From: Acanthochlamys bracteata | Lineage: Eukaryota > Streptophyta > Magnoliopsida > Pandanales > Velloziaceae | DNA length: 64,000 nucleotides | NCBI GenBank assembly: GCA_019914995.1 | Contig: CM034139.1 | Span: forward strand, 625,001 to 689,000 | Direction: 5' to 3' | Shown here: positions 8,919-48,213 of the stretch, in pieces | How positions within the stretch are numbered: position 1 is the first letter of the stretch | Layout of the letters: every line of letters begins with the position of its first letter | Translations under genes and position numbers: made by a program | The notes under the pieces: model-generated | The model's database searches: none | Told to the model about the DNA's origin: nothing | Seen by the model: only the letters and a program-made list of their open reading frames with translations

Positions 8919-11900
8919 TTAGCCACTGTTGTTAGGCGTCGTTCGGCTGCTCTCCCACCAGTCCTGAACAGAAGTAGGCGAATGTGGATGCTGCACTTTC
9001 TTGTCTTTAGTCGACTCTGCATCACAAACATGGGTTTGGGTTTCAGTTTGTATACCTTTCTTCGAACTGAAAGCTCCATCTTCGATCTCTCTCAAAACTT
9101 GAATCACTTCTTTTATTGGTGGCCTCATTTCACCGTCGTGCTGCAAACACCTGAATGCAAGCTCTGCCACCCTTGTGATCATCTTCTTAACTTCTGCATC
9201 TGACTCGAAGTTAAGTCCAGGATCAACAAGTGCCTCTAGCTCACCAATCTGAATTTTATTGATCGCCATCATCGCCAAATTGATCTCATTTCTCTTTCTA
9301 GTAATATCCACAGCTGGTTTCGAAGATATAAGCTCTACAAGCACAACCCCGAAGCTGTAGACATCGCTCTTGTCAGTCAACTGGTACGTCTGGTGGTACT
9401 CAGGATCTACATACCCTGGTGTTCCTTGAGGTGCCGTAGAGACATGTGTAGCATCAGTAGGAAAGAGTCTTGATAGCCCGAAATCTGCAACTTTTACATG
9501 GAAGTTGCCATCCAGCAGTATGTTGGTGGACTTGACATCACGGTGTATGATCGGTGGGTCCACAGCGTGGAGATAACTAAGGGCATCAGCTGTCTCAATG
9601 GCGATGCTTAGCCGAATCGGCCATGTTAGTAATCCTTCAGTTGCCCGAGGACCGTGGAGATGATCTGCAATGGTGCCATTCGGTATGTACTCGTACACCA
9701 GAAGAAGTTCTCGGCTCTGGTAAGGCGTGCAACCGTAAAAACTTACTAAGTTGGGGTGCCGCAAGCGGGAAAGGATTTCAACCTCATTGACAAACTGCTC
9801 CACGCGCTTGCAGTTGTTCTCATACAAGCGCTTCACTGCAACAATGCGGCCATCTCGAAGCTTGCCTGCATATGTTGAATCAAATCTTTCAGTATGTAAA
9901 AGGTAAGAGACCATAAGCTGCGGAAATTAAGACTCTGTTCAAGCAAAGAGACCTTTGTAAACGGTGCCAAACCCGCCATCACCGAGTTCTTTAGAGGCAT
10001 CAAAGGAGTTTGTAGCCTCTTGGAGCTCCTCGTAAGAGAACTGGTGAGTCTGAAACTTCTTTGTTCCGAGTTCTGGATCCTTAGAAGGTGTTTCAGAAGA
10101 CGATGAATGGAAAAAAGATGAAGATGCACGGATGTACTTTCGCTTCTTGTATCTGAAACATACTACGCAAACTACTAGTGCTAGTAACAAAACACCAGCT
10201 CCAGAAGAAAAGCCTATTCATTTCGACAAAGACCATTTCAATATACAAACTACGGAAAGAATACCATGAAGTGTACCACAATGAGAGAACGAGTAGCTTA
10301 CCTACAAGGATTATTTTGTTCTTGTTTTGGTGATTACCTGCAGAAAACGAGGTCTGTTATGATCATTTGAATTGTTAGGATAAAATCGTTAACATAGACA
10401 ACAAATAAGAAAAGTTATAGAAAACATTTGACATTCTGTTGAGAATTTCTTATAATCGAAACACAATTAAAGACAAATTAAGTTTTCAGCCAAAGCATTT
10501 GGCGATCATTCAAAAAATAACTTTTCAATTTTTTATTTTATATATTTTAATATACTTTTTATAAATATTAAAGAATTTATTTAAGATTTTAAAAGTATAT
10601 TAAAATTTTATATAGTGTGATCTTTTTCTTTGTATATTTTTTTATTCTTTTAGAAATAAAAATATAAATTTATTTCTCAAAAAAAATAAAAATATTTAAA
10701 AAAAACTTATTATAAAAGCACTTTCAAACGCTCTCAAAAAATGATCTTTCGTTATGTTCATTGAGGATCACATCATTTGGACAACAAAAGCTTCTTCAAC
10801 TTCGCTAGCAAACAATAATAAATTGAAGAGAAGGGATTGGAATTCACATAAAGAAAGTGTAGTGTCTTCACTCTTTTATTACTCATAGAGCGTTTGAAAA
10901 TATTTATAAAAAATATTTTTTATAATAGAAAATATTTTTATTATATTTTAAAATATAAGTTTTATTTTTTAAATTAAAAATAATAAACATAAATAATAGC
11001 AAAATATAAAATCTTTCAATATTTTTTAAAATTTTAAAATAATTTTATAAAATATTATAAAAAATATTAATAATATAAAACTTAATAAATTAGTAAATAT
11101 TTTTGGGAAGGCCAAACAGGTCCAGTCTACTTGTGCAATATTATATATATTATGCACATCGGAGTCTAGAAACTATGCAAAGGTTCAGCTGGAATTCCCT
11201 ATTTGACCCGATTTTTACATATGCAAATTTGAGTCTGTTGACTAAAATTTAAGAATGCACGAGAGATATTTCTGCCTACTACTTTTTTTTGATCTAAAAT
11301 AAACGTCACTAGTAATACTTTTAGAAGCCAAAGAACCAAAGGAGTGACTAGTCAATCGTGAAAATTAACCAATCACTTTCTTAAGATGTTTAGGAATATA
11401 AGGTGGAAGTTCTACTAATCCGTATGGAGTCGTTCTATTAGAGACTCTTATCTTTGACTCGTTCTATCGCTTTAAAATAAATTTAACATAAATTCATGTT
11501 CACATAAAGATAAAAATAAAAAGAATTGCGACTTACCATTACTGTTGCAGTTCGTCCGCTGAGAGCCATCGCTGCAGTGGCAAGTGAAGGAATAGCTTCC
11601 GTTGCCGGTAACATTGTACCCGCAAAACCCACCGTTTTTCTCGCATATAGAGCATCCGTCAGCTGTCATCGGCGTCCATCCAAGCTCAAACCCTTTCTTC
11701 AGGGCCGAGGCGAAATTTTCGGCCAAGGCTGTCATACTATCGGCTAGTTCGGAGCTCAGTACTGCGGCCGTCACCTTCTCATCGCACTTCAAATAGTTTA
11801 TCTCCGGAGGAATATCTTCATTTAGGAAAACGTAGGAGAAGATTTCTGTGGTAGGGCTTCTAGCAGACAAGCAAGTTATGGGGAGTATGCTTAATATCGG

Positions 11901-12350
11901 TGTGGTCAGCAAAGAGCAGTTGAAGAAGAAGGTGAGCGTATCGTCTGCCTCTGTGTAGTTGAACGGGCTGTTATTTAAGTCCCAGAAGGTATCGTTGTGG
12001 TGGACCCTCGGGCAATTACCCGGACTACTCAAGACGTCCGTGTAGCCGAGCACGACTTTCTTTTGTTCGTAGTCAATCTTTGTGACGGTGTAGTTGACGT
12101 CGCCGTCGAGGCTGAGTACCGGAGATTCATCGATGCATCGTATGGTGAAGTTCTTATAACCACAGTAGGGTTGAAATGTATCGCCTTTCCCTTGTTGAAG
12201 ACCTTCTACGTCTTCGAACCAGAAGGGGTAGTTTATGGGGACACCGCCGCATGTCCGTGTAGGGCATGCAGCCGGATAGTTGCAGAAGGTGATGGTAGCA
12301 GAAGAAAGAAAGAGCAACAGAAGAAGCAGAGATGGAGAAGCACGAAACAT
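8919..12350 (-). CDS. LRK10L1-type receptor-like kinase (RD kinase)
   Basis: Exons on the minus strand are 12350-11537, 10337-10302, 10213-9953 and 9865-8919. All junctions are GT-AG and phases agree, giving 686 codons (685 aa). The protein has a signal peptide (about residues 1-23), a GUB_WAK_bind galacturonan-binding-like domain (CPTRTCGGVPINYPFW), several N-glycosylation sites, a WAK-associated Cys-rich C-terminal domain (CSICEKNGGFCGY), a membrane segment near residues 288-308 (LLLALVVCVVCF), and a Ser/Thr kinase. The kinase shows a Gly loop (LGDGGFGTVYKG), VAVK near 382, HRD near 480, DFG near 498 and GTPGYVDPEY. It should act as a plasma-membrane receptor kinase sensing cell wall or pathogen signals; the ligand is unknown. 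The 1199-bp first intron carries MITEs. Exon 1 is almost identical to that of the head-to-head gene at 21375. Confidence 0.93.
10494..10737. repeat. AT-rich MITE copy in an LRK10L intron
   Basis: The right end ATAAAAGCACTTTCAAACGC and the left end GCATTTGGCGATCATTC are roughly inverted. It lies inside intron 1 of the minus-strand receptor kinase. Confidence 0.5.
10888..11122. repeat. AT-rich MITE copy in an LRK10L intron
   Basis: Begins with GAGCGTTTGAAAATATTTAT, continues with an A/T core and ends near TTTTTGGGAAGGCCAAAC. Second element inserted in the same intron; it has no counterpart in the other receptor gene. Confidence 0.5.
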
Positions 12351-12351
12351 T
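11238..12351 (-). repeat. Ectodomain inverted duplication, copy A
   Basis: About 1.11 kb covering exon 1 and the first 300 bases of intron 1. It repeats in reverse complement at 21374-22486. Only three coding differences were seen (Asp/Glu, His/Arg and Leu/Arg codons), plus a few in the intron part. Similarity stops at the start codon on one side and near the intron motif TTGACTAAAATTT on the other. Confidence 0.9.
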
Positions 12352-13282
12352 TTTCCTTTGGGCTTCTTCTAAGAGTTTGCATAGAAGAGGAAGAGGGTTA
12401 AGGATTGATTTTTTGTGTTATGGATGACTCGGTCTCTCAATTAAAGGAGAGTTGTTGGGGGATTTTCAGGGTAGTGGACTTTTGTGCGTGTGTGAAATAG
12501 ACCTTTGTTTAATGTCCCACCAAATGAATTTGTTGTGGAATTTAAGTGCGTGGCTAGTTTTCTTAAATTAGTCATAAAAGTACATTCTAAAAAAAAATAT
12601 TTAAAAAATAATTGTTAAAATGAGTTAAATTTGTATATTAAATTTATTAAATGAATTTAAAAATATAACTTTTAGTTTACAATATGGTCATCAGCAATAG
12701 AATTTTGAAGTAAGCTAAAAAATTAAAACTTTTAGTTAAAATAATTATAGAAGTGTTTGAAATTGAATTTTAGTGAAAACAATTGCATTTAGAAAAAGAA
12801 ACCCGTCTATCTGTGTGATGGCATCTTTTTCGCAACACGTTTCGACAAATTTTTATTCTAATTATTTATTTTAAGTTTCTATAAAAAGTTTTTAAATTTT
12901 AAAAAATATAAAAACTTTTACTTCATAAACTTTAATTATTAATTATTTCTTTTTAATTAAAAATAAAACTTAACTTTATAAAAATTAAAATCTTTTTGTT
13001 TTAAAAATTTTTTATTTATAAGTGTTCTAGAACGTCTCCCGTGTAGACTTGGTGGGACAGCTAAATTTGGTAGGAGATTAAGTCATTGATGTAATATTAT
13101 TTATTGTTTAAGGCATGTGGAAGTCTTTCGAAAACAATTCAACGTCTCTTCTTTAGTATGGCAGAATCTAGAAATAAAAGAAGATATTAAGAAGGTGTGG
13201 GCGTAAGAGAAATTGTTAGGTAGACTTTTGTGGGCATGCACGAACCAACCCATAGCATAATTGGCACTTTCAAACTGAACCA
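12352..13282. other. Promoter-side region of the minus-strand LRK10L gene
   Basis: Contains the 5' leader of the receptor kinase (about 12352-12480) and then AT-rich DNA. The segments 12560-12770 and 12800-13045 resemble the common MITE family (for example TATAAGTGTTCTAGAACG at the right end). It shares no sequence with the region upstream of the other receptor copy. Confidence 0.35.
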
Positions 13283-16200
13283 TCCGCATAAAATGTCGAT
13301 CCAAACGACAAGCTAATCCAAATGTACAAATTAATTCGGATTTTATTTAAACTGTGCGATCCGAACTGTCCGATTTAATTAAAAAATCGCTAACCGGCAA
13401 GGCGGTTGAATCGGGACGTTTTTTACTCAACTCTAATAAATATTGGACTCAATAAATAAAGCGCTCAATAGCTCATTCACTCATTCTTTGTCCTTCGCTA
13501 TTTTTCATTCGCCGATGGCACCGCCAAAGTTTTCTGGCAATCCCTCTTATCTGAGCGCAGTCTTCGACATCTCCGGTGCTCAATCTTCGTCTTTGATTTT
13601 TTTCCGGTGCTGCTCTTTATTGTCTTTGTCTCTCCCATCGCTGTTCATTTCCGCTATTCATCTACGTGTGATTGCTCTTGTCTCTAGTGAACATCTGCTC
13701 TCTCCATTTGATTTGCTTTGTCTTATCGATTTGCTCTCTCCTTTTGAGTGCTCTCATTCCCAGTATTCATCTACTCACCGCTGCTCGATTAGTCGCTCAC
13801 TAACTAATTTGCCACACAGTTGAAAACAGATTGGATTTGCATCGAATAGTCGCCCTCACTGATCTGCCTCACAGTTGAAAACAAATTAGGTTTGCAGGCT
13901 ACAGCACAGCAATGTCTAGTATTGGTTCCAATCCCTTTTCAGATTTTGCAACACAATTTTCAACAATTCCAGTAGCTCAAAATTCTATCAGAGTGAAAAG
14001 TGATCCTGCTTGTGGTCACTATAAGTTTGATGAAACTGACAGCAGTACAAGAGAAGCAAATTGGTATGCAGTTACTGTTCGCGAGTATTTACAGGAGGTG
14101 GTATTAATTGCTTCAAACAACATTTAGTTAGAGTGAAAGGTGATGTTGGTGCTTACAAGTCTGTTCCTGCTGACATTCGCTATCATATAAGCTACTTATT
14201 GATGAGTTCGCTTAAAAAAAAAAGACATTAGAAAATGCTGGATGAACAGAATTTTTTTAGCCAACAGAATAGAGAACGTGAGGAGCAAGATTACACTATA
14301 TCCAGCGAGTCGGGACACATGCTGTTAGATCATAGCACATTTACAGAAGTTGGCAGAGGGTCGTATAAATAGAGAAAACTTAGGACAGCATGTAACTAGA
14401 AAGGGAAAAGAGATAATGCATTTGAATTCTTATTGTATGCCGAGAATAACTTCCAATGCACAACCTATTTTGAGGAGTGTCTTGCAAAGTAAGGAGGCCA
14501 AATAAAGATGTGGGCTTGCTATTTCTAAATGAATGATTTATGCATGCATATCGTTTAATATGTTAATTCAATGTATTTTCCACCTATGATAGATACTATT
14601 ACTAACATGGTCGCGGGTTATAGAGCTCCTCGCTATCATATTTTTAGAATTTTTTTGTTGAAAAAGAATATTGTAGAGACAAAAGCGCTACATTGAGAAC
14701 TATCGTGATGTGTGAAAGAGATCAGAGTGAACCATCATTGCTGATGGATGGTCGGATCAAAATAGAACCCTTACTAATTTCTTAGTTTATACTGAAATGT
14801 ACTATTTTTCTCAAATTTGTTGATGCATCTAGTGCTTCAAAAACTACAAATATGTTATATAAGCTCCTTAGAGAAGTTGTTTTATATGTGATTGTTGAAA
14901 ATGTCGTTCATTTCACGGATAATGTATCTAATTATGCAGCTACTGGTAGACTATTAGAAAAAGAGTTTCCAAATTTGTTTTGGTCTCCCTATGCTACACA
15001 CTATGTTAATGTCATATTTTATGACTTCGATAAGTTAGATGAAGTTAGCAACTTGGTAGCACATGCATATACAATTACAAAGTATATTTATAACTACTTT
15101 TTTGCTTTAAATTTATTGAGAACATTTACTTGTAGAAGGGAGATACTTAGACCAGCACCCACTCGCTTTGCAACAAAAAATTTTGTTACATTGCAAAGAT
15201 AGTTTGAGAGTTATGGTAACATAAAAAAAATAGACAACTTCAGTCTATGCTAAAGAAAGTAAAAGAAAAAATTTGTGGATGATGTGTTAACTCCTTTCTA
15301 GTCAGAGTGTGCAACTATTGTGAAACTTACTACTCCTCTAATTCGTGTTCTTCGTATAGTTGATAGTAATGAATAGGATATTTGTTTGGGGCTATCAATA
15401 GTGCTAAAGCTGAAATATTGAGAAGATTCAAGAAGAACAAGGATAGAGTTGCACCATATCTTAACATTGTCGGGAACATGTGGGATTATTAATTAGGTAA
15501 ATCTTTGCATTCAGCTAGTTATTGGCTCAACCCTTATTATCAATATGATAACTCATTTGAAAAAGTTTCTTCCACTGGTTCGGGGCTTTTTGATGTTATT
15601 GAAAAGTACGGTTTTGGAGATTTTGAGTTGATCGGTAAGTTGACTAGGGAGATGAAGCTTTTTAGAAATGCCGAAGGTGACTTTGGACATATTTATGCTA
15701 TAGCTAATCGTAAAATTATGACTCCGGGTAGTTATAGTTCCATACTTGATTTTTATATGTTTCTAGCAGAACCATCATTTTCTTGCTGTTTTTCACTTTT
15801 TTTATATTTTTAAAATTTTACTCTTGCAGATGAATGGTGATTATTATATAGAAATAGTCTTAAACATCGCCAAAAGCTGGCCATTCGTATATTAAGGCAA
15901 ATTTGTAGTGCTTCATGTTGTGAGAGGAATTGGAGCATATTTGAACATATACATTTCAAATAAAAAATAGGTTAGAGCATCAACGACCTAATAATCTTGT
16001 ATATGTTCATTGTAACTTGAGATTGAGACAACGATAGTAGTTCTTCACTTTTTCTACCTTTTTATTTTATTTTTTATTTTATTGTGTATACATTTTTCAT
16101 ATATTTTTTCTTATTAATTATATGTGAATATTATGAATTATTTCAAGAGTCAAAAGTATGACCCTATCGATGTTGGATAATTTAGTGACAATGATGAGTG

Positions 16201-16500
16201 GATAACCATGGATGAACCACCAATTTTAAGAAGAGTTAGAAGTATTTTACAATCAATTGGAAGCATGGTCAATTTAAGAGAAACCCGCTAATAGTATGTG
16301 TTTTTTTTTTTTTTTTTTTTTCAATTAATAATATTTTATGGTAAATTTAAGAATCTAACTTCTAAAATATAATTGTGTTGTAGATACTGAAAATTTATTG
16401 AATCTTGATGATCTTGTTTTGGATGATGACGAAGATGAGAAGAATGAGGAGGGAGGTAACGAACATGGGTCTGCATGAGAGTTTCTCCATGTCAAGATAT
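13283..16500 (+). mobile_element. Decayed hAT (DUF659-type) DNA transposon
   Basis: The body holds a broken transposase (13912-16280). The 5' side has GATCCGAACTGTCCG-like subterminal sequence at about 13340-13420. Exact termini and target duplication were not found, so the limits are approximate. It separates the two head-to-head receptor kinases. Confidence 0.6.
13912..16280 (+). pseudogene. hAT transposase pseudogene (DUF659 + dimerisation domain)
   Basis: Pieces of one transposase appear in order but in different frames. An N terminus with MSSIGSNPFSDF is followed by a BED-finger tail (KQHLVRVKGDVG, about 14110-14150). Then comes a DUF659 segment (DNVSNYAATGRLLEKEFPN at about 14920-14975, continuing through RFATKNFVTLQR near 15200). 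A middle part covers 15505-15750, and the hAT dimerisation region contains KLAIRILRQICSAS (about 15870-15915) and CERNWSIFEH. Many stops and frameshifts rule out function. The family is a domesticated-looking class of plant hAT proteins, but nothing here suggests domestication. Confidence 0.9.
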
Positions 16501-17084
16501 GTTTCTAATCCATGTCAATGTGACATTCAGTCACTAATATATGTTTCTATACTTGCTATGTTCTGTGATCATTTAGAAAATTCTGTTAGTGTGTTCTGTT
16601 CTTGGTATTTTTTTGCAGCCATTCCTATTTAGTTGTTTTGTTCTTTGGAAAATTCAGTCTCTAATACATGTCAATTATGTTGTTGTAGCATGTAGTAGCT
16701 GGTGGTTTGGTTCTGTTTGGTTGTCTAGTGGTTTGGTTTTGTTTGGTTGTCTGGTGGTTGGTTCTGTGACTAAAAACATGAGTCTGCTTGCTGGTGCTTG
16801 TTGTTAATTTCAAAGTGATATAATTTGTATTTCTTGTGTGTTCACTTGCATGTTTTCTTGCTACTTGTACTGCATGACTTGAATATAAGTTCCATCAGTT
16901 TGATGGAAATTGGAAAGAGTGCTTTTTCTAAAGATGATCCAATATTCAGTTGATTAGTTTTATATGCATATCTATTAGCATGAATTTAGTAATAACTCGT
17001 ACATGCATAAGCATGAGCATTCATTGCTGACATACTTTCTATGTACTGCTGGCATACTTCATAGGTAGTGTTCACTGTGTTATG
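16501..17084. other. Non-coding tail 3' of the hAT relic
   Basis: T/G-rich sequence with repeated GGTTTGGTT and GTCTGGTGG words around 16690-16780. No gene. It is probably still within or derived from the transposon. Confidence 0.3.
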
Positions 17085-17470
17085 CTCTATTTTGGGTACC
17101 AGTATAGGCTTTTCCTGGATTTTTGATCTAGTATAAGCACTAGTTAGCAGACTTCATGAAATTATTTTTCTTGCTATCAGCATAGAATTTTCTGTATTTC
17201 TTTTATCTAGTATAATTGTATAACCACTAGTATAACCACTAGTATGACATTCTTGTATGTGGAATACTTCTTATTACTGCCAGCATAGGATTTTCTGTAT
17301 TTTTTTATCTATTATAAGTAGTTAAGCACCAGTATGGCAGGCAGACTTTGTGGATTTTTATTGCTGCCAGCCTAGGGTTTCCTGCATTTGTTTCATGTAT
17401 GTGATATGATATGATGTCGTTTCCTATATTTTGTTTCCTGCAACATAGGATTTGCTGCATTTGTTAGCTG
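17085..17470 (+). repeat. Degenerate tandem repeat, about 100-120 bp unit
   Basis: Three to four diverged copies follow one another. Each contains words such as TGCCAGCATAGGATTTTCTG, a TTTTATCTAGTATAA stretch and ACCAGTATGGCA. Copies start near 17090, 17175, 17275 and 17365. No coding frame is shared across the copies. Confidence 0.55.
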
Positions 17471-18067
17471 AATTGGATTGCAATACAGGTTTTTCAGATT
17501 GCGTTAACTAAATTGCTGGCAAACGAAACATAATTGATTTTTCTTTGCAAAACAAAAGTGATAAACAAAACATTTGTTTCCCGCATGTTATAAGATAATA
17601 GATTTTTCCTTTATAAATTGGATTGCTACAGCTTTTGTTATTTGTTTGGATGATATCAGCTGTCTTCTTTATTGCATTAGATTTTTCATGCAATTCACTT
17701 GATGTCATAAATTAATATTACACAGCTACCAATGGAGGAGCTTGCTGACTGCCTGGCAGAGTTGAAGCCTTGAATTAAAGGTGTTTTTTTTACTCTCCCG
17801 CACAACTTAAGCTTTGAAGGGATATATCTCTAGTTTATGATCCCTCATCAAAGCTGCAAAGCTTTGAATGTTCTTAAAAATTGAGATGCTGTTGCCGTTT
17901 GGATGTTATTGATAAAATGATGAGTTTGTTGCTTTCGGTTGGTATTATTGTTGAAATTTGATACTAGGTGCAAAGTAAGTTTTGTGTGTATAGAATGGAT
18001 TAATATTATTGTAGAATGGAATGGATCTTACTATCTTTTCAAATGGAATGGAATGGTATTATTTGCA
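17471..18067. other. Spacer between tandem repeat and palindrome
   Basis: About 600 bases without a gene. It contains a short run of GGAATGG repeats near 18010-18055. Nothing else was recognised. Confidence 0.3.
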
Positions 18068-18366
18068 AGTAAGTTTTTCTCGGAGACCACTCACGCCTAT
18101 TAGATGGGAGAAAACTAGCCTTACAAAAAGCATTATGATCGTTGTGATTCGACCCGTAGGTCTATTCAGCCATTTATGCCATGTTTTTTTTCTCGATAAG
18201 ATTTTCAGAACTGAATTCTTAAAAATGAGTTACTTATTGAACTTCAGAATTGAGTTTAATTTCATGTTTACTTGTTATTAAAAATGACTTTGAAAGGGAA
18301 AGATTTAGTTTTAAAATTTAAATTTTAGAAGTGAAGATCTTGGAATAAAAGACAGAATTTATTTTT

Positions 18367-18599
18367 TGATAAAAAAACTATTTTAATCTTATTCTATCTT
18401 TTTTTTATTCCACTTATTTTTCAATCTTTCAAAACAAATATATATATATATATATACTTTATAATATTCAATAAGAAGAGTTCTAAATAAATAAAGAAAT
18501 ATAATTTTAGGAGAATTTTAAATAAAAAATATCTAATTTTAAGAAAAAATATTTTAATATATCTAAAATATTATATATATATATTGAATCATGCCAACA
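18367..18599 (-). repeat. 3' LTR of the TRIM-like element
   Basis: Direct repeat partner of 19599-19829. Shared blocks include AATCTTATTCTATC and TAAAGAAATATAATTTTA. Confidence 0.8.
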
Positions 18600-18689
18600 A
18601 TCTCACGCAAATTGGTGTAAAAATATCATCGATGTTTAACTTGCTCAATGAGTAATGAAAAATTTTATTTGAACTTTCTATAGTCTGAT

Positions 18690-19075
18690 TAGTTGGGTCG
18701 GACGGACTTATTTATCAAGATCGGGTCCGATCTGTCTATCCAAATCGGGTCGGACTTATCTGTCCAGATTTTGTCGAATTCATTTATCCAGGTTGGATCA
18801 GATTGGACTTACATGTCCGGGTCGGGTCTAACTTGTCTTTCCAAGTCGGGTCGGACTCATCTATCCCAGTTGGATCGGACTTGTCTATCTAGGTCGAATA
18901 GGATCAGTCTGGTCGAATCGGGTCGGATTTATATGTCCTTATCGAGTCGAACTTGTTTATCCGGATCGGATCGAATCGAATTTATATGACTAGATCGGAT
19001 CGGACTTGTCTGTCCATATTAAATCGGATCTATCTATCTTGGTCGGGTCGGATTTATATATTCAGTTTGGCTCAA
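18690..19075 (+). repeat. Degenerate tandem repeat inside the TRIM-like element
   Basis: About a dozen diverged units of some 24-40 bp are built on words such as GGTCGGACTTGTCTATCC and GATCGGGTCGGA. The reading frame 18693-18989 merely translates the repeat and is not a gene. Confidence 0.8.
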
Positions 19076-19584
19076 TTTGAACTAGGTTTGGTTCAGTCAG
19101 AATTAGACTGAACCAAGTTTGTTTGGTCTGCTTGCCTGGTCTGATTTGATCGTATCTAGATTGAACTAAGATTAGTCGGATCAGTTCAGACCGATCTAGA
19201 CAAGTAAGAGATTCGTTCAGTCTAGTTCACTTTAGTTCAGCAGATCTTCGGCGAAGTGAACACAAATTCTCCCACCGCCTCTTCTAACGGCGATTAAATC
19301 TCTGACGAAGTGAAATTGGGCCAGAGGAGGAAGTGGCGACTGTCTTCTTTTTCTCTTTTTCAATTTTTTTTTATCTAATCTGGTTACATCATAGGATTGA
19401 TCAAATTGATATGGTCGGAGTTTCTGATTGTTGCAATCGTATCTTCAGGATAGCAGCGGAATTGTCTAGTCGGAGTCTAATCATCGGAGTTGTCATCTTC
19501 TACGACGATGACGGATAGATCCAGTTAGATCTAACCGTTGGAGTCGTATCTTTCACGGCGACAGTAAATAGATTTACAATTTTG

Positions 19585-19595
19585 TTCTGATACCA
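19585..19595 (-). other. Retroelement primer-binding site (tRNA-Met type)
   Basis: The reverse complement reads TGGTATCAGAA. It sits 3 bases from the inner end of the 5' LTR, as expected for a primer-binding site. Confidence 0.75.
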
Positions 19596-19598
19596 TAA

Positions 19599-19829
19599 TG
19601 AAAAAACTAATTCAATCTTATTTTATCTTTTTCTTTATTGTTACAACTTATTTTCAATCTTTCAATACAATTACATATATATACACTCCTTATAACACTA
19701 AACAAGAAGAATTCTAAACAAGTAAAGAAATATAATTTTAAGAGAATTCTAAATAAAAAAGATATCTAATTCTAAGAAAGATATTTTAATATAGCTAATA
19801 CATTATATATATGTTCACTCACGCTAACA
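19599..19829 (-). repeat. 5' LTR of the TRIM-like element
   Basis: On the minus strand it starts TGTTAGCGTGAGTG and ends GTTTTTTCA. Direct repeat partner of 18367-18599. Confidence 0.8.
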
Positions 19830-20212
19830 GTTTTTATATGTGATGTGATTTGAAAGTGAAAAAATTAATATTTTTAAGATAAAAAGTAAGTTAAAAGTGT
19901 TGATAAGCTCGCCCTTACAGGGCATTTAATATTGCTTATATTTTCGTATTCATATCATTTTTTATTTTTAAATAATTTATTGGATACTTTAAAGTATATA
20001 TATGGGGAGGGATAGAAACACTCCAGTCTTTATACACATTTCAGCGCACTCCACGATATTTCTGATGATGAAGATCTTCAAATCTAATATTTGCCATATG
20101 ATATGAAGAATTATGAGTCAGTAACATGCTAACAAAATTTTATCTTAATAGGATTATAAATCGACCTCTATCTGACCACTTGATCATTATGACACAAAAA
20201 GTAAAAAACTTG

Positions 20213-20215
<3 letters not shown>

Positions 20216-20271
<56 letters not shown>
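20216..20271. repeat. (AT)n microsatellite at the palindrome centre
   Basis: 56 bases of alternating A and T lie between the two arms of the foldback element. The length is likely polymorphic. Confidence 0.95.
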
Positions 20272-20274
<3 letters not shown>

Positions 20275-20985
20275 TTTTAGTTGTCTTGATCATATATATA
20301 TGGATAGATATATATATTTTTTTTAGTTGTCTTGAATCGTAATAGAAGTCGATTGAAATAAAAAATAAAACTTATCAGTATGTTACCGACTCATATTTCT
20401 TCATATTCTACAATAGAGATTAGATTTGAAAATCTCCACGATCAGCAATCGTCGTGAAGTGTGCTGAAATATGTATAAAGACTGAAGTGCTCCTATTTTT
20501 CTCATATATATATACTTTAAATTAATGTATAAACTTTTAAAATTAAAAAATTTAAATTGAGATGAAATAAGAAAACACCACCAATATTAAATGCCCTCTG
20601 AGGATGACTTAATCAAAACTTTTAACTCATTTTTTTAAAAAATTATTTCTAACTCACTTTAAATCAAATCATATACAAAAAACTAAACTCAACTTTTCAC
20701 AAACACTCTATTTTCAAATTTTAAAATTTAGAAGTTAAAACTAAAATTTACTTTCAAAACTACTTAATAATAACTAAATATGAAATTTAAACTCACTTAA
20801 ATTTCGGTTTTAAATAATTTAGTTTGGAAATTCAGATCGGAGCAAACAAACGTGCCTAAATGGCTGAACTGACCTGCATCTCGAATCACATCCATCATAT
20901 CATTTTTTTAAGGCTATTTTCTCGCGTCTAATAGGCGTTGAGTGGTTTCTAAGCAAAATCCCTCCGAGATGAAACGAAATATTAT

Positions 20986-21373
20986 GCATATTTCTATATG
21001 TGTAAGGAATAATAAAATTTAATATATATAGAATATTTATATTTTCCTAATTTCTAAAACAAATCTATAAAATATTAAAGAAATTTGTATAAAATTACTT
21101 GAATAAAAATTAAAACTAAAAATTGTTGAAAAGTATCTTCAAACCGGTGCGTTTTTGTGGTAACCCCGCTGCTCGATCTAAATTGACTAATACAAGTCAA
21201 AGTCTTCGGAACCGATCTGTGGGTCATTTGATGTTAACTAACTTAAAATTTCTTCAGAAAAAGTCAATTTAAAATTTTAACAAAAATGTAGACAATGTAT
21301 TGTTAACAATGTAGACTTGGAGAGAGTTAATTCTTCTCCAACACCTTCGTTCATAATTCTCCCTAAAATAAAC
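20986..21373 (+). other. Promoter-side region of the plus-strand LRK10L gene
   Basis: About 390 bases without a gene, upstream of the start codon at 21375. It shows no similarity to the leader of the other receptor copy, although the two coding exons are nearly identical from the ATG onward. Confidence 0.4.
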
Positions 21374-22486
21374 AATGTTTCGTGCTTCTCCATCTCTGCT
21401 TCTTCTGTTGCTCTTTCTTTCTTCTGCTACCATCACCTTCTGCAACTATCCGGCTGCATGCCCTACACGGACATGCGGCGGTGTCCCCATAAACTACCCC
21501 TTCTGGTTCGAAGAAGTAGAAGGTCTTCAACAAGGGAAAGGCGATACATTTCAACCCTACTGTGGTTATAAGAACTTCACCATACGATGCATCGATGAAT
21601 CTCCGGTACTCAGCCTCGACGGCGACGTCAACTACACCGTCACAAAGATTGACTACGAACAAAAGAAAGTCGTGCTCGGCTACACGGACGTCTTGAGTAG
21701 TCCGGGTAATTGCCCGAGGGTCCGCCACAACGATACCTTCTGGGACTTAAATAACAGCCCGTTCAACTACACAGAGGCAGACGATACGCTCACCTTCTTC
21801 TTCAACTGCTCTTTGCTGACCACACCGATATTAAGCATACGCCCCATAACTTGCTTGTCTGCTAGAAGCCCTACCACAGAAATCTTCTCCTACGTTTTCC
21901 TAAATGAAGATATTCCTCCGGAGATAAACTATTTGAAGTGCGATGAGAAGGTGACGGCCGCAGTACTGAGCTCCGAACTAGCCGATAGTATGACAGCCTT
22001 GGCCGAAAATTTCGCCTCGGCCCTGAAGAAAGGGTTTGAGCTTGGATGGACGCCGATGACAGCTGACGGATGCTCTATATGCGAGAAAAACGGTGGGTTT
22101 TGCGGGTACAATGTTACCGGCAACGGAAGCTATTCCTTCACTTGCCACTGCAGCGATGGCTCTCAGCGGACGAACTGCAACAGTAATGGTAAGTCGCAAT
22201 TCTTTTTATTTTTATCTTTATGTGAACATGAATTTATGTTAAATTTATTTTAAAGCGATAGAACGAGTCAAAGATAAGAGTATCTAATAGAACGAGTCCA
22301 TACGGATTAGTAGAACTTCCGCTTAAATTCCTAAACATCTTAAGAAAGTGATTGGTTAATTTTCACGATTGACTAGTCACTCCTTTGGTTCTTTGGCTTC
22401 TAAAAGTATTACTAGTGACGTTTATTTTAGATCAAAAAAAAGTAGTAGGCAGAAATATCTCTCGTGCATTCTTAAATTTTAGTCAA
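21374..22486 (+). repeat. Ectodomain inverted duplication, copy B
   Basis: Reverse-complement partner of 11238-12351, covering exon 1 and the start of intron 1. Beyond 22486 sequence identity is lost until the diverged 3' end of the intron. Confidence 0.9.
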
Positions 22487-24355
22487 AAGAACTCTAGACT
22501 TGCTCAAATAAGCATGTAGATAATGTTGGGTTATTAGGGAAGTTCCGTGAACCTTCGTTTAAGTCCAACTCAAACTATTAAAACTTTTCAAAGACAAAGC
22601 AAACTGTTTTGGAACAGTTCCATTTGTTTCCTTCTTTTCTCCATTTTCTCCATTTTAGACCGTTTCCTTGTTTCCATGCATGATAATATAACAAAAAAAC
22701 ACCAAATGTTAAGATAATCGTCAAATGCGTTAGCTTAAAACATTGTGTTTAATTGCGAGTCGATTTATCGGAAACTCTCAACGTAATTTCAAACTTCTTT
22801 TATTGCTTTTCATAGTTTACATCAATGATTTATCTTAACAATTCAGATGATGACAGAAGACCTCTTTTTTTCTGTAGGAAATTTCAACAATCACAAAAAA
22901 AGAAAAATCATTGAAGGTAAGTTACTTCTGCATATGACCCCGCAACTCATTCTCATTATGGTAAATAAATTTCATAGAATATTATATAAGACTTATAAAA
23001 TATTGTAGAAGGTTCATCATATTTTTTCCATAGTTTGTATATTAAGGTGTTGTTTGTCCCATATTGGATTCTTAAAGTTCCTCACAGACGAAATGGAAAT
23101 TAAATTCCTAAAATTTGAAGACAAATAAAGATAGGAGCTTTATTAGAAGTTCTATTCACTATGCATGCATAATTTTCCAACTGTATAATTAAGTAGCCAT
23201 ACTTATGCTAAGAACTAACATCTACTTTTTTCAGCCGGAACTTTGTTATTCGGAGGCTTGGTTATATCTAGTTTTCTCATTGTTCTCGGTTTTGTAAGAT
23301 ATCTGAGAAATAGACGAGGGTGTCTTTTATGGAAGAAAACACCAAACGATGCTCGAGCTATTGAATCGTTTCTTCAGAAATATGATTCTTTAGTTCCAAA
23401 GCGCTACACGTATGCAGAGGTTAAGAAAATGACCAAATCACTCAATGAAAAACTTGGCCAAGGAGGTTTTGGTAGTGTTTTCAAAGGAAACCTACCAGAT
23501 GGACGTCAAGTGGCCGTAAAGATCTTAAACATTTCTAACGGAAATGGCGAAGATTTTGTCAATGAGGTGGCTAGCATTGGGAAGACATCTCACGTAAATG
23601 TTGTCACACTTTTAGGGTTTTGTTCTGAGAGTTCTAAGAGAGCTTTGATTTATGACTTTATGTCAAATGGTTCGCTTGATAAACACATCCGTAATGCAAA
23701 GGTCGCGCAAATGCCATCTCTTAGTTGCGAAAAACTTTACGAAATAGCAATTGGAATTGCTCGCGGACTGGAGTACTTGCATCGTGGAAGTAATACTCGG
23801 ATGGTTCACTTCGATATCAAGCCTCACAACATTCTACTCGATAAAGATCTTCGTCCAAAGATTTCTGATTTTGGGCTAGCTAAGCTGTGCTCCTCTAAAG
23901 GCAGCATCGTGTCAATAAATGGAACCCGAGGAACACCTGGCTACATTGCTCCGGAAGTATTCTCTCGAAGTTTCGGAGTTGTTTCAAGTAAGTCTGATGT
24001 CTATAGCTATGGAATGATGATTTTGGAAATATTCGAAGGAAAAGATAAGTGTGCATTGAACAATGAAGAAGGTAGTGAAGACTATTTTCCAAACTCCATT
24101 TATAAAACTCTTCTTGCAGAGAATCATGAAATTAGTACACATTCTATCACGAATGCATCGAGCGAAATTATAAGAAAAATGTTAGTTATCGGTTTATGGT
24201 GCATACAAACAATGCCAGAAAATCGGCCTTCGATGCAGAGGGTTATTGAGATGTTGGAAGGTGGCAGCAAAGATTTGCCAGTGCCACCAAAGCCGTTGTT
24301 GATTTCTTCTCCAGTTAACTTTGATTTCATGACGATGTCGTCAAGCCTTGTGTAG
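21375..24355 (+). CDS. LRK10L2-type receptor-like kinase (non-RD kinase)
   Basis: Exons 21375-22188, 22878-22916 and 23235-24355 join through GT-AG introns in matching phase to give 658 codons (657 aa). The ectodomain (signal peptide, GUB_WAK_bind, Cys-rich WAK-associated part) is almost identical to that of the gene ending at 8919. A short linker and a membrane segment follow (LLFGGLVISSFLIVLGFV). The kinase belongs to a different subfamily: Gly loop LGQGGFGSVFKG, VAVK, the catalytic loop HFDIKPHNILLD (Phe replaces Arg, so non-RD), DFGLAK and GTRGTPGYIAPE. Non-RD receptor kinases are often linked to innate immunity; that role is inferred here. It is head-to-head with the RD gene across 9 kb of transposons. 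Confidence 0.93.
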
Positions 24356-29379: not shown

Positions 29380-32123
29380 ATGTTGGCAGTTTTGAGCGGT
29401 GAAGTAGTGGAGGCACCGGAGGAGTTGCTTGCTGCCGGCAGCCGGACTCCGTCGCCGAAGACGCGCGCTGAGCTGCTTGTGGATCGTTTTATTTCCTGTT
29501 CTGCTCCTGCAATTTCTATTAGAGCAGGGGTTCACGCTCAGCTTGCTTACTCTCATTCCAACCAGTCTCCTTTTCTTCCAAGGTAAAATAATCTGGTTTT
29601 CTTCTGTTAAATTAGACTCCGCTAGATTTTCAAGCTCTCAATTTTCTTTCAACGAGTTTTTTCCAAACTTTTTCGAATAATCGATACGCAGATTTACTTG
29701 TGGCAGAAACCCCATGAATTATAAAAATTTGGTAGATTCTAATACTTGGATTTCCAAATCTTTAAATGATCTTTGTGTAGTTTGATCTGCAACAGAGTGA
29801 GCTGTAGATTAATTTGCAGTAAATTTTTTTCGTAAAATTTTATTTTCTTTCGTTAATGAAAAAAAATAACTCTGTCACCTAACTCTTTGTATTGGTTTTG
29901 TGATTAAGTAATGAAGAGATAAGATCAAGACAACTGCTAGTGAGTAGTGAGGAGATGACTGGGTAACTACACTGATATAATATGTGTATACCAAAATGAT
30001 TAGTAAACTATTCAAAACTAATAAAAAAAATTTTAATTAATTTTTAAAAAAAGAATTAATCCGATTTGATCCGGGTGGACGAATCGACCGGATTAAAATA
30101 GATCGAACGGATAAAAAATAAATTAATTATATAAACGACTTTTTACAAATTCGGATGAATTGATTCGGAACTGCCAACTATGCAACAAATATATTAATGA
30201 ACAAAATAAATTTCTCATCTAATTCTTTCTATTGGTTTGTGATTAAATAATGAAGAGATAAGATCAAGACAACTCGCTATTTTGAAGTTTTTATAAAATA
30301 AAATTTTTTAAAATAAAAAATATTTTTATTTTTTTAAAAGAAATTTTATTTTTTATTTTTAAAAAAGTAATAAAAAAATATAATAAAAAAATTTTATTAT
30401 GTAAAATTTTTTATACTTTCTAAATTTTTAAATAAATTTTTTAAATATTATTAAAGTATATATTAAAAAATATTAATAGCAAATTAAAAATCTGCTTATA
30501 GAAACCGCTCTCTTAAAGAAAGAGTAACTACAGTGATAGAATAATATGTAGTGCTATTTGGTAAAGCTTATTAGGTGCTTTTTATTTTAAATATTTTTAA
30601 TAAATTTTTATAATATTTTATAACAAAATTTAATTTAAAATATACATCAAGATTATATACTGTACAATTTTGTTTATTATATTAAAAAATTAAATTCTTT
30701 TTTTAAAAAAATAAAAATATTTTTCTATTTATAAGTACTGCCGAATTTTTGCAGAATGATTTGTTGATTTCATTCAAATATCCAACACATTTATTTTGGA
30801 AAATCCTTTAAGTTTGCAGCAAAAGGATTTTTGGTTTGGGAGAAGCATTTTTTTTAAAAAAAAATATCCTTAACTTATTCTACAAACAAGCTGATCCCAT
30901 TCAAGTATACTTCACAATAAGCTTTTTATTAAAAAAAAAAAAGTTAAGCTACTTACTTTAAAAAAAGTTTCTTACTGGAATAAGCTCTAAACTTTAGACC
31001 TCATTTGGTGCTGCTGAAAAAAAGAACCTTTAAAAATTGTAGATTCTTTGGAAAAATGAATTTTCAATAGACCAGCGTAGGTACTTTAACATCATCCTTA
31101 ATTTCCTATATTAAGGAAAATATATATTGAAAGTTGTAAAAGATAGATTTAGTTAGAGATTTTTCAACATTACATACCAGCATTCAATAATTGTTAGAGA
31201 CTCTATTTGGAATTCAACTTTTGAATCATGAATTTGACGTGAATCAAGTTCGAAATCGAAAGTATTGTTCATAACATAACCCGATATTCCGAAAGGATCC
31301 AACTTGGTTATTCAATTATCTTGGCTCGCAGGTCCTTTGCTGTGAAGGATGACATATTCTGCCTCTTCGAAGGAGCACTGAACAATGTCGGCAACCTCAG
31401 ACAACACTACGGCCTATCCAAGACTGCCGACGAGGTGATGCTCATCATAGAAGCCTACAAGGCACTACGCGACCGATGCCCTTATCCTCTGAGCTCCATG
31501 CTCTCCCATTTATCTGGTTACTTTGCTTTCATTGTCTTCGACAAGGCAACTTCTTCAGTGCTTGTTGCTTCAGTGAGTTCTCACACTTTGTACTTCTTCC
31601 TTTCAATTGATTTGTTGCTGATTACTGTAATGCTTGCTCACTTTTTAACAGGATCAGTCAGGGAAGGTGCCTCTGTACTGGGGAATCACGGCGGATGGAT
31701 GTTTGGCCTTTGCAGATGACTTAGATTTGCTTAAGGGGTCTTGCGGCAAATCACTTGCTCCCTTCCCTCAAGGTACGTAGTAACAATATAGTGAATGTTG
31801 GTTATTTCACCAATGCCTTTCTAATCAAATCCATATTGATGATATATAATAAAACTCTGGGATTTGAAGGATGTTTCTATTCCAATTCGCACGGAGGTCT
31901 GAAATGTTTCGAGAACCCGAAACACAAAGTAACAGCCATTCCTGCTAACGAAGAAGAAGTTTGCGGCGCCACTTTCCAGGTGCGTATCTATATACATACC
32001 TCACAGCTTTATACACAAGTAGTACCCACCAAAAAAAAAAAGACAGAAAATCTGATCATAAATCGCAATGTTCTGAGCATGTTGTAGGTGGAAGGAACTA
32101 CAATTCTTGCATCGACGCATTAG
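29380..32123 (+). CDS. TSJT1 / aluminium-induced protein (YGL and LRDR motifs, DUF3700)
   Basis: Five exons: 29380-29582, 31332-31572, 31652-31772, 31870-31979 and 32088-32123. All are bounded by GT-AG with matching phases, giving 237 codons (236 aa), a normal length for the family. The N terminus MLAVLSGEVVEAPEEL, the motif SRTPSPKT, SFAVKDDIFCLFEG, HYGLSK (YGL), ALRDRCPYP (LRDR), GKVPLYWGITADG and the tail CGATFQVEGTTILAS are family hallmarks. The fold resembles the glutamine amidotransferase (Ntn-hydrolase) part of asparagine synthetase without the N-terminal catalytic Cys, so catalysis is doubtful. Relatives are cytosolic proteins induced by stress, wounding, darkness or auxin. Intron 1 is long (1749 bp) and holds MITEs. 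An unusual point is CLAFADD in exon 3, where relatives usually have a V or Y first. Confidence 0.93.
30278..30514. repeat. AT-rich MITE copy in TSJT1 intron 1
   Basis: Left end TTTTGAAGTTTTTATAAAAT, right end CTGCTTATAGAAACCGCTC, with an A/T core. Confidence 0.5.
30553..30745. repeat. AT-rich MITE copy in TSJT1 intron 1
   Basis: The left end GCTATTTGGTAAAGCTTATT and the right end ATTTATAAGTACTGCCGAA are loosely inverted. A further degenerate piece lies at 30838-31000. Confidence 0.4.
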
Positions 32124-35842: not shown

Positions 35843-38771
35843 AAAGATCAAAATATGGGTCGGACCAAACGAGCCGGCCCGCAGCTCGGTCGTTCAGCCC
35901 GGTACAAGGCCCGCCCGATCCGATGAACAGTAACAGGATCGGGCCGGCCCGGTCCGGTGCGATGGGCAGGACGGGCCGACTTTGCTGGCCCGTCCGCTCG
36001 ATACTGTTTTGTTGACCGGTCAATATTGACTTTGATCTGGTCAACGTTGACCGTTGACCAGGTCAAAAAAACTAAACTAATTTCTGTCATACTGATGTCA
36101 GTATGACCGTTGCAGCAGCCAGCCAACGGTGGTTTTACCATTGGCTGGTTGCTGTAACGTTAAGATTTTTTTTTTTAAAATTTAACTTTTCACCTATAAA
36201 TACATCATATTTTCATTCATTTTTCACACATTTTTCTTAAATCTCATTTTCATTCTACTCAATTTTACACAAAATTATAAAAATAATTTTTTCTTACTTT
36301 ACTTTTTAAATTCACATTTCTTCAATTCTCAAAATTTTAGTTGTTATTTTAAATGGATCCAAATTTTCGTGCCATTAATCTTGATATGGATGACTATGGC
36401 ATGGACGATCAAAATTTGGAGAAAATAGATATTGCCCGTATGGAGAAAGGAGATGATATTCTTCCAATAAAAGAAGAAGTTTTCATCAAAGATGTAACGA
36501 AATTCCTCCAATTCCAAGTGTTGGAAGTAGTTCGGCTTCAGAATCGACATCGACAACAACAAAACGTTCAAAAGTCCCAACTTCTGAAGCCTGGAACTAT
36601 TTCACTTCCGAATATACAGTGCTAAGTGATGGTACTCAATCAAAAATGGCGAAATGTAAGTTTTGCAATAAACTTTTAACTGCTAATTCTAGTGCAGGTA
36701 TCCGACATTTAATAGCACATGGTAAAAAATGTGCTTCCAAAAAACAAATCGGAAGGAACCTTCACAAACTCAACTTCAATTCAATAAGGATGGTTCGGTA
36801 AGTACTTGGTCTTATGATTCTAATGTAGCTAGGAAATCTCTTGCCCGTATAATTTGTGCTATAAATTTACCTATTAATTTTGGTAAGTCATCATATGAAG
36901 AACATATTAAAAGAGCATATTGTCCACAATTCCAAAAAGTTAGTAGAACAACTACTAGAAGCGATATTATTATTTATTATAATAAAATGCGCACTATATT
37001 AAAATCTGAATTAACTTCTTTAAAATTTTCTATTGCGTTAACATCTGATATTTAGAGTGGTAGAGCTAAACAAGATTATTTAAGTGTTGTTGCTCATTAT
37101 TTAGATTCACAATGGATTATGCAAGAAAGAATTCTTGGTTTTAGACTTATTGATTCCACACATGATGCTAAAAATATTTCTGAGCGCATTATAAGTGTAG
37201 TTAAAGAATGAGGCATAAGCAACCGCATTGTCTCTATCACCCTAAATAATGCTTCAGCAAATACCAAAGCAATTCGATTTCTTGAGATGGAGCTAAGCTC
37301 ATACATGGGAGAAATTTTACTACATCAACGTTGTGCTTGCCATATTATCAAGTTAATCGTACAATCATGTATGCAGCTAGTAAGTAAACAGATTAATAAT
37401 ATTTGCGTTACTATTTTTTGGATTACTAGTTCAAATCAACGTTTAGCTGAATTTAAGAGATATTGCATAGCAGAACATCTAAAGCTCCAAAAGTTCAACT
37501 TTGATATGCCAGTAAGATGAAATTCTACTTATTTAATGTTGAAAAGTATTTTAGATTATAAAAATGTGCTTATGATTTTTTATAATACAAGAATGTGTAA
37601 CAATATATTTACTGAAACTCATTGGATTATTGCTGAAAAATTTGTAGAATTTTTAGAAACTTTTTATGATGCTACTGTTTTATTATCTGGTGTTTACTAT
37701 CCTACTTCTCCATTAGTTTTACATTCAATTCTTAATATAGCTACTATGCTACATTCACATGTAACAGATGAATTACTTAGATCTATAGTTATAATATTGA
37801 CTAAAAAATAAAAAAAATATTGGTATGATATTCCTCTTTTATATTATTTTGTATTTATGTTAGATCCTAGATTTAAATTTGTGTATTTTACTAATACTCT
37901 TATATATATTGGTATGTATTTAGATATTTTGATATTCAATTGCAAATAACTAACGCTCGTAACAAGCTGTATGAAGTTTATGATCTTTATGAAGTTAGGT
38001 TTGGTAATTTGCAAAATCAACAACAACAAGCGGCACCGGCACAAACTCATCAAAGTAAGAAGAAAAAAACGATCAATTGGTCTTTGATCTCCATCAAGCC
38101 TGGCTCAAGTTCAACACCATCTTCAACTTCAAGCAGCATGCAATCTTCTTCGGACTTGAACAAATATTTTGAAGGCGATACTGTCATTGTAGAAGACGAT
38201 GAAAACCCAGAAAATTTTAATATTTTGAACTGGTGGAAGACACATTCAACAAGATATCCAGTACTCTCTCAACTAGTACGTGATATTTTGACTATTCCTG
38301 TTTCAACGGTGTCTTCAAAATCGGCATTTAGTACAGCCGGAAGGATAATTAAAGAACGCAGAACACAACTTACTAGTGAGATGGTTGAAGTGTTAACTTG
38401 TTTGAAAGACTGAAAACTTGCGGTCAAAAGAATGCAGCATACAACTTACAATGAAGATCTAACTAAACAATTTTTTGAATTATTTTTAAATAAAAATATT
38501 CCAAGTACAAGTTCAAATGTATAATTATATACATATTTCAAATTGTAATAATTTTTTTATATTTAATAATAATTTTTAAAGTTATTTTTTAAGCGTTTTA
38601 TATTTAGTAATAATTTTTAAAGTTATTTTCAATTTTTTATATTTAATAATATTTTTAAATATTATTTAAATTTATTATTTAAAAGTAAATATATATAACA
38701 GAATGTCGGACCGGACCGAGTCAAAATTTCATACCCGGGTCGGCCCGGCCCGCCTATTTTTGCACCTCTAG
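35843..38771 (+). mobile_element. RICESLEEPER-like hAT transposon with target duplication
   Basis: The element is bounded by an 8-9 bp direct repeat, (G)TTGCAATT, at 35834-35842 and 38771-38779. The ends are imperfectly inverted: the right end read inward is TAGAGGTGCAAAAATAGGCG, the left end TAAAGATCAAAATATGGGTC. Both ends carry subterminal GGCCCG/CGGGCC motifs (35868-35995 and 38700-38755), typical of hAT elements. It contains one broken transposase gene. Confidence 0.85.
36353..38523 (+). pseudogene. hAT transposase pseudogene (BED finger to dimerisation domain)
   Basis: Reading from the ATG at 36353, the pieces appear in order. An acidic N terminus leads to a BED-type zinc finger (KCKFCNKLLTANSS ... 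HLIAHGKKC, about 36655-36735). The catalytic body runs from 36790 to 37900, and the C-terminal dimerisation domain contains ILNWWKTHSTRYPVLSQL and DILTIPVSTVSSKSAFS (about 38220-38335). Interruptions include a frameshift near 36500, stops near 37053, 37209, 37518 and 37809, and a gap or frameshift near 37900-37940. Relatives are RICESLEEPER/DAYSLEEPER-type proteins. The gene is not functional as read. Confidence 0.9.
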
Positions 38772-47869: not shown

Positions 47870-48213
47870 CAAATTCTGACAGAAACAGTTGAAAATCTCA
47901 ACATCTTTCATTCATTTATTCCTTCGTTCATTCTTTCTTTCTTTTCTAAATTGTTACTGAACTTGGTTTTTAGCTCTTTCCCTCTTCTTCTTCCTTTTCT
48001 TTTTGTTTCTCTGTGAATTCTCTTTTTTTCTCCCCTTCTTTCTTTCTTTTTTTTTTTTCACTCTCTCAATTTCCTTACAAGGATTGCTTTACACTCTTTT
48101 GTTTGGGTTTTCTCGGTTTCTATTTTTGTGTTTTTTCATCACTCTGTTCTTGTTCTTGAAATTTCTTTCTTTCTCTGTTTCTTGTGTTAAATTTCCTTGT
48201 AACATTCTAAGTG
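47870..48213 (+). promoter_or_regulatory. Pyrimidine-rich leader of the LRR receptor kinase
   Basis: About 340 bases strongly biased to C and T on the plus strand (runs of TTCTTTCTTT and CTTCTTCTTCC) lie directly before the start codon. Long CT-rich 5' leaders are common in plant genes. The short upstream ORF at 48003 is unlikely to be a gene. Confidence 0.5.

Follow-up and report, generated by a model that had tools for sequence, protein, structure and literature searches.

In cucumber, the clustered genes CsLRK10L1 and CsLRK10L2 (the latter GenBank MK936607) encode an RD and a non-RD receptor kinase that are more than 90% identical in their N-terminal parts and less than 30% identical in their C-terminal parts (PMC7649820). 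The ectodomain is encoded by exon 1, both genes were cloned from cDNA, and the two ectodomains are each other's closest relatives, with separate homologues for the kinases; the pair is explained there by a duplication of exon 1 and its fusion to another kinase, and the relative orientation of the two genes is given in a figure (PMC7649820). Expression of the non-RD partner in Nicotiana benthamiana caused necrosis, and expression of the RD partner caused none (PMC7649820). Here we analysed a stretch of 64,000 nucleotides from Acanthochlamys bracteata (positions 625001-689000 of contig 14 of a 195.5-Mb genome; below called the window), which contains a divergent pair of LRK10-like receptor kinase genes (locus C14). 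Like the cucumber pair, C14 carries near-identical exon-1 ectodomains on an RD and a non-RD kinase, so that the core observation has a published precedent (PMC7649820). The cited sections of that report describe one locus with one duplication and fusion, whereas we describe four loci, their dating, the edges of the shared tracts and arrays of ectodomain exons (PMC7649820). What looks new is that such pairs recur at four loci within one genome and that some clusters contain more ectodomain exons than kinases. Among the matches listed, titles and abstract openings of open-licence PMC articles mentioned no gene conversion of ectodomains between RD and non-RD plant receptors in divergent orientation, and the cucumber pair was the one relevant case.

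The closest mechanistic analogue appears to be an animal gene pair. The primate genes SIGLEC11 and SIGLEC16 lie head to head about 9 kb apart, show gene conversion in every primate examined and are termed paired receptors in the cited part of that report (PMC5701461). They resemble the present loci in their repeatedly homogenised ectodomain exons and different signalling parts, but they encode animal sialic-acid lectins without kinases; moreover, similar binding and shared expression are established for the SIGLEC pair (PMC5701461), whereas the present loci are described from their sequence. The predicted proteins of C14 and of a second locus, C13, combine highly alike ectodomains with different signalling parts, as is characteristic of paired receptors, and by analogy these loci may function as such. 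In cereals, LRK10-type receptor kinases in opposite orientation are found in the Lr10 Lrk/Tak clusters, for which no ectodomain common to an RD and a non-RD kinase is known to us. In the loci described here, recurrent and locus-specific gene conversion probably keeps the ectodomain exons of divergent RD and non-RD receptors alike, with the kinases left unexchanged.

The receptor pair of the window

The RD gene lies on the minus strand. Its exon 1 (11537..12350; 271 codons plus 1 nt) encodes a signal peptide and an ectodomain with GUB_WAK_bind and WAK_assoc domains and ends in a phase-1 donor. It is followed by an exon of 36 nt (10302..10337), whose end at a GTAAGC donor was set by eye, by exon 3 (9953..10213) with the transmembrane/juxtamembrane segment and the start of the kinase, and by exon 4 (8919..9865) with the RD kinase and the stop codon at its low end. 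The non-RD gene on the plus strand consists of a mirror copy of the ectodomain exon (21375..22188; identified by DNA comparison and Pfam), an exon of 39 nt (22878..22916) and exon 3 (23235..24355, stop included) with the transmembrane segment and the non-RD kinase (MVHFDIKPHN). The later exons of both genes come from gene models, supported for the kinases by Pfam and by their motifs; the contrast of IIHRDVKSTN in the RD kinase with VHFDIKPHN in the non-RD kinase, already pointed out in a preliminary description of this DNA, was confirmed. The spliced models (685 amino acids (aa) for the RD and 657 aa for the non-RD gene) are open throughout, and in both a GTAAGT donor closes the 814-nt exon 1. 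Both exon-1 products scored above the Pfam cut-off for GUB_WAK_bind and WAK_assoc, as did both bodies for Pkinase, and a hydrophobic segment, judged by eye, is present in both models. Both genes thus match the make-up of LRK10-like receptor kinases, with an ectodomain, a predicted transmembrane helix and a cytoplasmic kinase. A search for solved structural relatives of the ectodomain revealed none up to E 0.1. We assigned the class names LRK10L1 (RD) and LRK10L2 (non-RD) by resemblance to the cucumber genes (PMC7649820).

At the protein level, the two ectodomains are 98.9% identical versus about 32-33% for the kinases. The exons are embedded in a homogenised inverted repeat, with a left arm (11234..12359, minus strand) comprising exon 1, 9 nt of leader and about 303 nt of intron 1, and a right arm at 21366..22490 (plus strand). 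Two inverted matches cover the arms (11405-12359 with 21366-22320, 955 nt, 99%; 11234-11402 with 22322-22490, 169 nt, 99%), a further DNA comparison gave 99.1% identity over 1121 bp, and a base-by-base comparison counted 9 differences in about 1118 nt. Three of the 813 coding bases of exon 1 differ, all of them nonsynonymous (D47E, H117R, L156R) and none synonymous, in agreement with the preliminary description, which had placed inverted copies of the exon at 12350-11537 and 21375-22188 with about three coding differences. The first ~304 nt of intron 1 contain six differences (five substitutions and one indel). The contrast between exon and intron (3/813 versus 6/304, p 0.015) is weak and was not used as support. 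The repeat extends beyond exon 1, with 9 nt of shared sequence ahead of the ATG and about 303 nt of the intron. Although three residues differ between the copies, one binding surface may serve two outputs at C14, as the preliminary description proposed.

The inner ends of the arms are 9006 nt apart. This 9-kb spacer (12360..21365) must hold the promoters of both genes, and the 200 bases preceding each ATG are dissimilar between them. It also contains hAT-type transposon debris (DUF659 at 14786-15202); a BED finger and a hAT dimerisation domain were detected further right (36457-36801 and 37895-38413).

Four divergent loci and their two histories

A DNA search of the genome, in which the best candidates were scored, returned four matches, namely the C14 pair and another head-to-head pair, located on contig 13 (70%), which excludes a chance likeness of the C14 exons. 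Searches with both ectodomain families and both kinases through the genome (for the kinases, the best 120 of 1208 and the best 109 of 1049 candidates were scored) revealed the same layout at C14, C13 (7.05 Mb), C12 (6.88-6.92 Mb) and C7 (8.62-8.68 Mb): an RD kinase facing outward on one side, a non-RD kinase facing outward on the other, and ectodomain exons in both orientations between them. Among the candidates scored, all four RD kinases with at least 67% identity to the RD kinase of the window sit in such loci, the next match having 53%. HRDVK is present in each of the four RD kinases and HFDIKPHN in each of the four non-RD kinases. Both main kinase exons of C13 are open; the lone TGA in the non-RD kinase match is the stop codon of that kinase and lies five codons from where the match ends. 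The C13 pair shows 89.6% aa identity in the ectodomains versus 35% in the kinases, and the ectodomains of C14 and C13 are only about 70% alike. At C7, a relic of a non-RD-type kinase with nine stops (8639342-8640199) separates the intact non-RD kinase from the mirror ectodomain exons. We refer to C13 and C14 as duplicated loci from the likeness of their kinases and ectodomains only, because the synteny of neighbouring genes gave no answer: the WEMBL-type gene of the window matched itself alone, with no second copy in the genome at E 1e-20, and the AAA-type gene has its best relative on C19.

Inverted matches between mirror exons were also found at the other three loci. They have 92.4% identity over 866 bp at C13, 99.1% over 887 bp for exon A of C12, 93.7% over 1415 bp and 86% over 617 bp for exon B of C12, and 97.8% over 5960 bp at C7, where the repeat contains exons A and B; C12 has in addition mirror fragments of exon C (82%) and exon E (89.6%). 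The synonymous divergence (dS) of the mirror ectodomains within a locus was 0 for C14, 0.113 for C13, 0.006 for C12 A, 0.075 for C12 B, 0.02 for C7 A and 0 for C7 B (143 codons; the C7 B copies were trimmed to their readable parts before dS and tree analysis). Between C13 and C14, dS was 0.61 and 0.62 for the ectodomains, 0.51 for the RD kinases and 0.66 for the non-RD kinases; between C12 and C7, it was 0.46 for ectodomain B, 0.43 for E, 0.63 for the RD kinases and 0.45 for the non-RD kinases. Where measurable, the values between loci are of one order; they were saturated for C12 A versus C7 A and for the kinases of C14 versus C12. The difference between these between-locus and within-locus values implies that the two-kinase layout is older than the locus duplications and that the ectodomains were made alike later, at different times per locus.

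Trees of the two gene parts disagree. In the exon-1 DNA tree (14 rows, with exon E and the outgroup left out), each of the six mirror pairs forms a sister group of its own, with starred support throughout; the C14 copies group with support 100/99. The kinase DNA tree (8 rows, outgroup kinase left out) separates RD from non-RD kinases at 100/100. Approximately unbiased (AU) tests, for which the groupings were picked after the identities had been seen, rejected the opposite arrangements: the RD copies of C14 and C13 forced together in the exon-1 tree (p 2.2e-8), the minus-strand B copies of C12 and C7 forced together in the same tree (p 3.8e-37) and the C14 kinases forced together (p 1.5e-10). 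The inner forks of the kinase DNA tree are weaker (C14-C13 RD 89/89, C12-C7 RD 90/87, C12-C7 non-RD 98/97), and bootstrap values for between-locus kinase pairs were 56-78 in the protein tree and 71-98 in the DNA tree. The protein exon tree recovered the C12 B pair at 90/92; long-branch warnings concerned exons C, D and E and the outgroup and left the mirror pairs unaffected. With exons grouping by locus, kinases grouping by class and the opposite groupings rejected, the ectodomains were homogenised independently from locus to locus, and their likeness has been renewed repeatedly at four separate loci. The preliminary description had suggested a recent conversion or duplication of the ectodomain exon and had named agreement of separate exon-1 and kinase trees as the outcome that would speak against it; the trees made within this genome are discordant, which supports its suggestion.

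The edges of the shared tracts were scanned in steps of 50 bases in four pairs. In all four, likeness is lost at a 5' edge within about 60 bp of the ATG (-9 in C14, +35 to +38 in C13, about -37 in C12 A and -58 in C12 B), so that the sequence before the start codon is unshared in these pairs, whereas it is shared in the C7 repeat. On the 3' side, likeness ends within intron 1, after about 60 bases in C13, 74 in C12 A, 303 in C14 and about 600 in C12 B (plus a stretch of 86%). Beyond the C12 A tract, identity drops from 98-100% to 77-92% per step, and the sequence can still be aligned in inverted orientation; the tract of 99.1% adjoins inverted segments of 85% (157 bp) and 82% (618 bp). A 99% tract beside such segments favours gene conversion within an older repeat at C12 A. 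As the copying step, gene conversion appears to fit best, rather than repeated inverted duplication of the exon.

We propose that each locus would hold an LRK10L1-type RD receptor on one side and an LRK10L2-type non-RD receptor on the other, reading apart, and that the inverted copies of the ectodomain exon would be re-equalised repeatedly, locus by locus, through gene conversion. Neither the kinases nor, in four pairs, the stretch ahead of the start codon would take part in the exchange; the common phase-1 donor would make the ectodomain exon interchangeable between both bodies. The likeness may be retained since the two receptors would gain one wall-derived ligand specificity together with two kinase outputs, as do animal paired receptors, and the domains suggest pectin fragments as the ligand. 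Non-RD kinases are the kind linked to immunity. If the pairs are functional, a single ligand would be read through both an RD and a non-RD kinase; with the sensor held constant in this way, the contribution of the kinase class could be tested in a natural system, and paired receptors kept by gene conversion would become testable in plants.

Ectodomain exons in excess of kinases

In clustered protocadherin and UGT1A genes, a single shared body is preceded by several alternative N-terminal exons. As far as can be read from the DNA alone, C12 and C7 resemble them in having several N-terminal exons before one body; to our knowledge, protocadherin and UGT1A genes offer no counterpart to mirror copies feeding a second, opposite body. 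On the plus strand of C12, the single RD kinase has five ectodomain exons (A, C, D, B, E) ahead of it; no other LRK10-type kinase was found among these exons in the part of the intervening DNA that was covered or among the best candidates scored in the kinase searches. On the minus strand, two whole ectodomain exons and fragments precede the single non-RD kinase. Exon E was recognised as an ectodomain by its position and by its likeness to a C7 copy, which scores just below the Pfam cut-off. A candidate phase-1 donor, chosen by eye among several GT, follows the last cysteine in 15 of the 15 readable exons of the four loci (the frameshifted plus-strand copy of C7 B, a relic at 8.635 Mb of C7 and the C12 fragments were left out), so that each of these exons would fit either body. 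The B pair of C12, which has no adjoining kinase, is constrained, with 12 changes at 160 synonymous versus 12 at 593 nonsynonymous sites (p 0.0014). C12 thus has an excess of N-terminal exons over bodies, and by the candidate donors all of them would share one splice phase, as in clustered genes with variable first exons.

In addition to the proposed gene conversion, the mirror arrays of C12 and C7 could possibly act as alternative first exons with their own promoters, spliced to one kinase per side, an idea that we hold tentatively and at less than even chance. Each side would then provide several receptors, and the mirror copies would make the two sets overlap. The five plus-strand exons before one RD kinase, the candidate donors in all readable exons and the constraint on the B pair are what such splicing would predict; secreted proteins consisting of the ectodomain only would, however, explain the extra exons equally well, and some of the exons are broken. 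A distant kinase between the exons is also possible, as only the best search candidates were scored, and the count of five includes exon E with its position-based assignment and sub-threshold C7 relative. Rather doubtful is a further step, in which the loci would be mirror-symmetric cassettes with a common, evolving pool of ectodomain exons, conversion copying new sensor variants across the two sides and alternative first exons giving each kinase several sensors. If true, this would be a paired-receptor system in plants whose recognition part needs to evolve only a single time to serve two outputs together.

Other explanations, control clusters and further features

Gene conversion has one competitor that accounts for the discordant trees equally well: a birth-and-death process without conversion, in which an inverted duplicate of the ectodomain exon repeatedly replaces the older exon. 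The cucumber pair was interpreted as an exon duplication in the cited sections (PMC7649820), and the C7 inverted repeat of 5.9 kb at 97.8% resembles a duplication. At C12 A, however, the inverted arrangement predates the 99% tract, since its neighbours are at 82-85%; no leftover second ectodomain exon was found at C13 and C14 in the locus DNA searched (E 1e-5), and the process would require exons to be lost and gained time and again at one splice position. We therefore consider it unlikely. An assembly artefact, in which a single ectodomain exon was placed twice in inverted orientation, is suggested by the 99% likeness of the C14 arms and is very improbable: exon and intron each contain differences between the C14 copies, neither reading frame is interrupted, the flanks of the arms are dissimilar on each side, mirror pairs with dS of 0.006-0.113 occur at three further loci, and a comparably built pair was cloned from cucumber cDNA (PMC7649820). 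Strong purifying selection preserving two ancient ectodomain copies without any copying would agree with the two intact C14 exons, but is refuted by the absence of differences at ~180 synonymous C14 sites and an intron 98% alike, against a between-locus dS of 0.61.

Several observations weigh against recurrent conversion that maintains a shared sensor. The C7 repeat could stem from one recent inverted duplication. With the flanks already diverged, a confinement of conversion to the exon could also arise neutrally, as a consequence of where likeness is left. C12 A and C7 A have 29% protein identity and saturated dS; they are thus no simple pair of duplicates, and the exon sets have undergone turnover. 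We rejected them as orthologues, the label A denoting position. Sharing is not always preserved, given that the C7 copies are partly broken, with a frame break in the plus-strand copy of B and an open frame of the minus-strand copy that lacks the N-terminal part. The C7 A pair shows no sign of constraint (3 synonymous versus 15 nonsynonymous changes). Together with the exclusively nonsynonymous differences at C14 and the partly broken C7 B, this makes selection for identity at most putative. Finally, the sister grouping of the C14 and C13 non-RD kinases has weak support (71/38).

Two clusters served as controls. In the C20 cluster of four tandem RD genes, ectodomains are 56-80% and kinases 89-97% identical in aa in all six comparisons, the ectodomains being compared over 104-181 aligned residues in partial frames. 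The pattern of the four divergent loci is thus absent there, and we rejected homogenisation as a general habit of the family: ectodomains diverge faster than kinases in this tandem cluster and are reset across two kinase classes in the divergent loci. The second control is a head-to-head pair at about 9.41 Mb of C7, classed as non-RD-type by kinase likeness and not by motif. Its ectodomain frames are 40% (45 aa) and 30% (84 aa) identical, the plus copy lying in two frames and possibly being broken, and no inverted DNA match at E 1e-3 was detected within the 3.2 kb compared. Head-to-head closeness alone was rejected as the cause because of these unlike ectodomains. As neither cluster of this small sample of two shows the pattern, neither tandem nor head-to-head position suffices to produce it. 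The surrounding region (9403065-9414860) contains three LRK10-like kinases closest to the non-RD kinase, including this pair with its unlike ectodomains; one copy has three stops.

Beyond the receptor pair, the window encodes an AAA ATPase (1286-2617), an aluminium-induced-type DUF3700 protein (31243-31719) and a WEMBL (chloroplast movement) protein (40780-42531). A leucine-rich-repeat receptor kinase is divided between two long frames (48211-49785 and 50336-50995). An AT-rich dispersed repeat of about 125 nt occurs in 13 copies in the 64 kb (416-540 and 12 others), with 60-76% identity to the reference copy.

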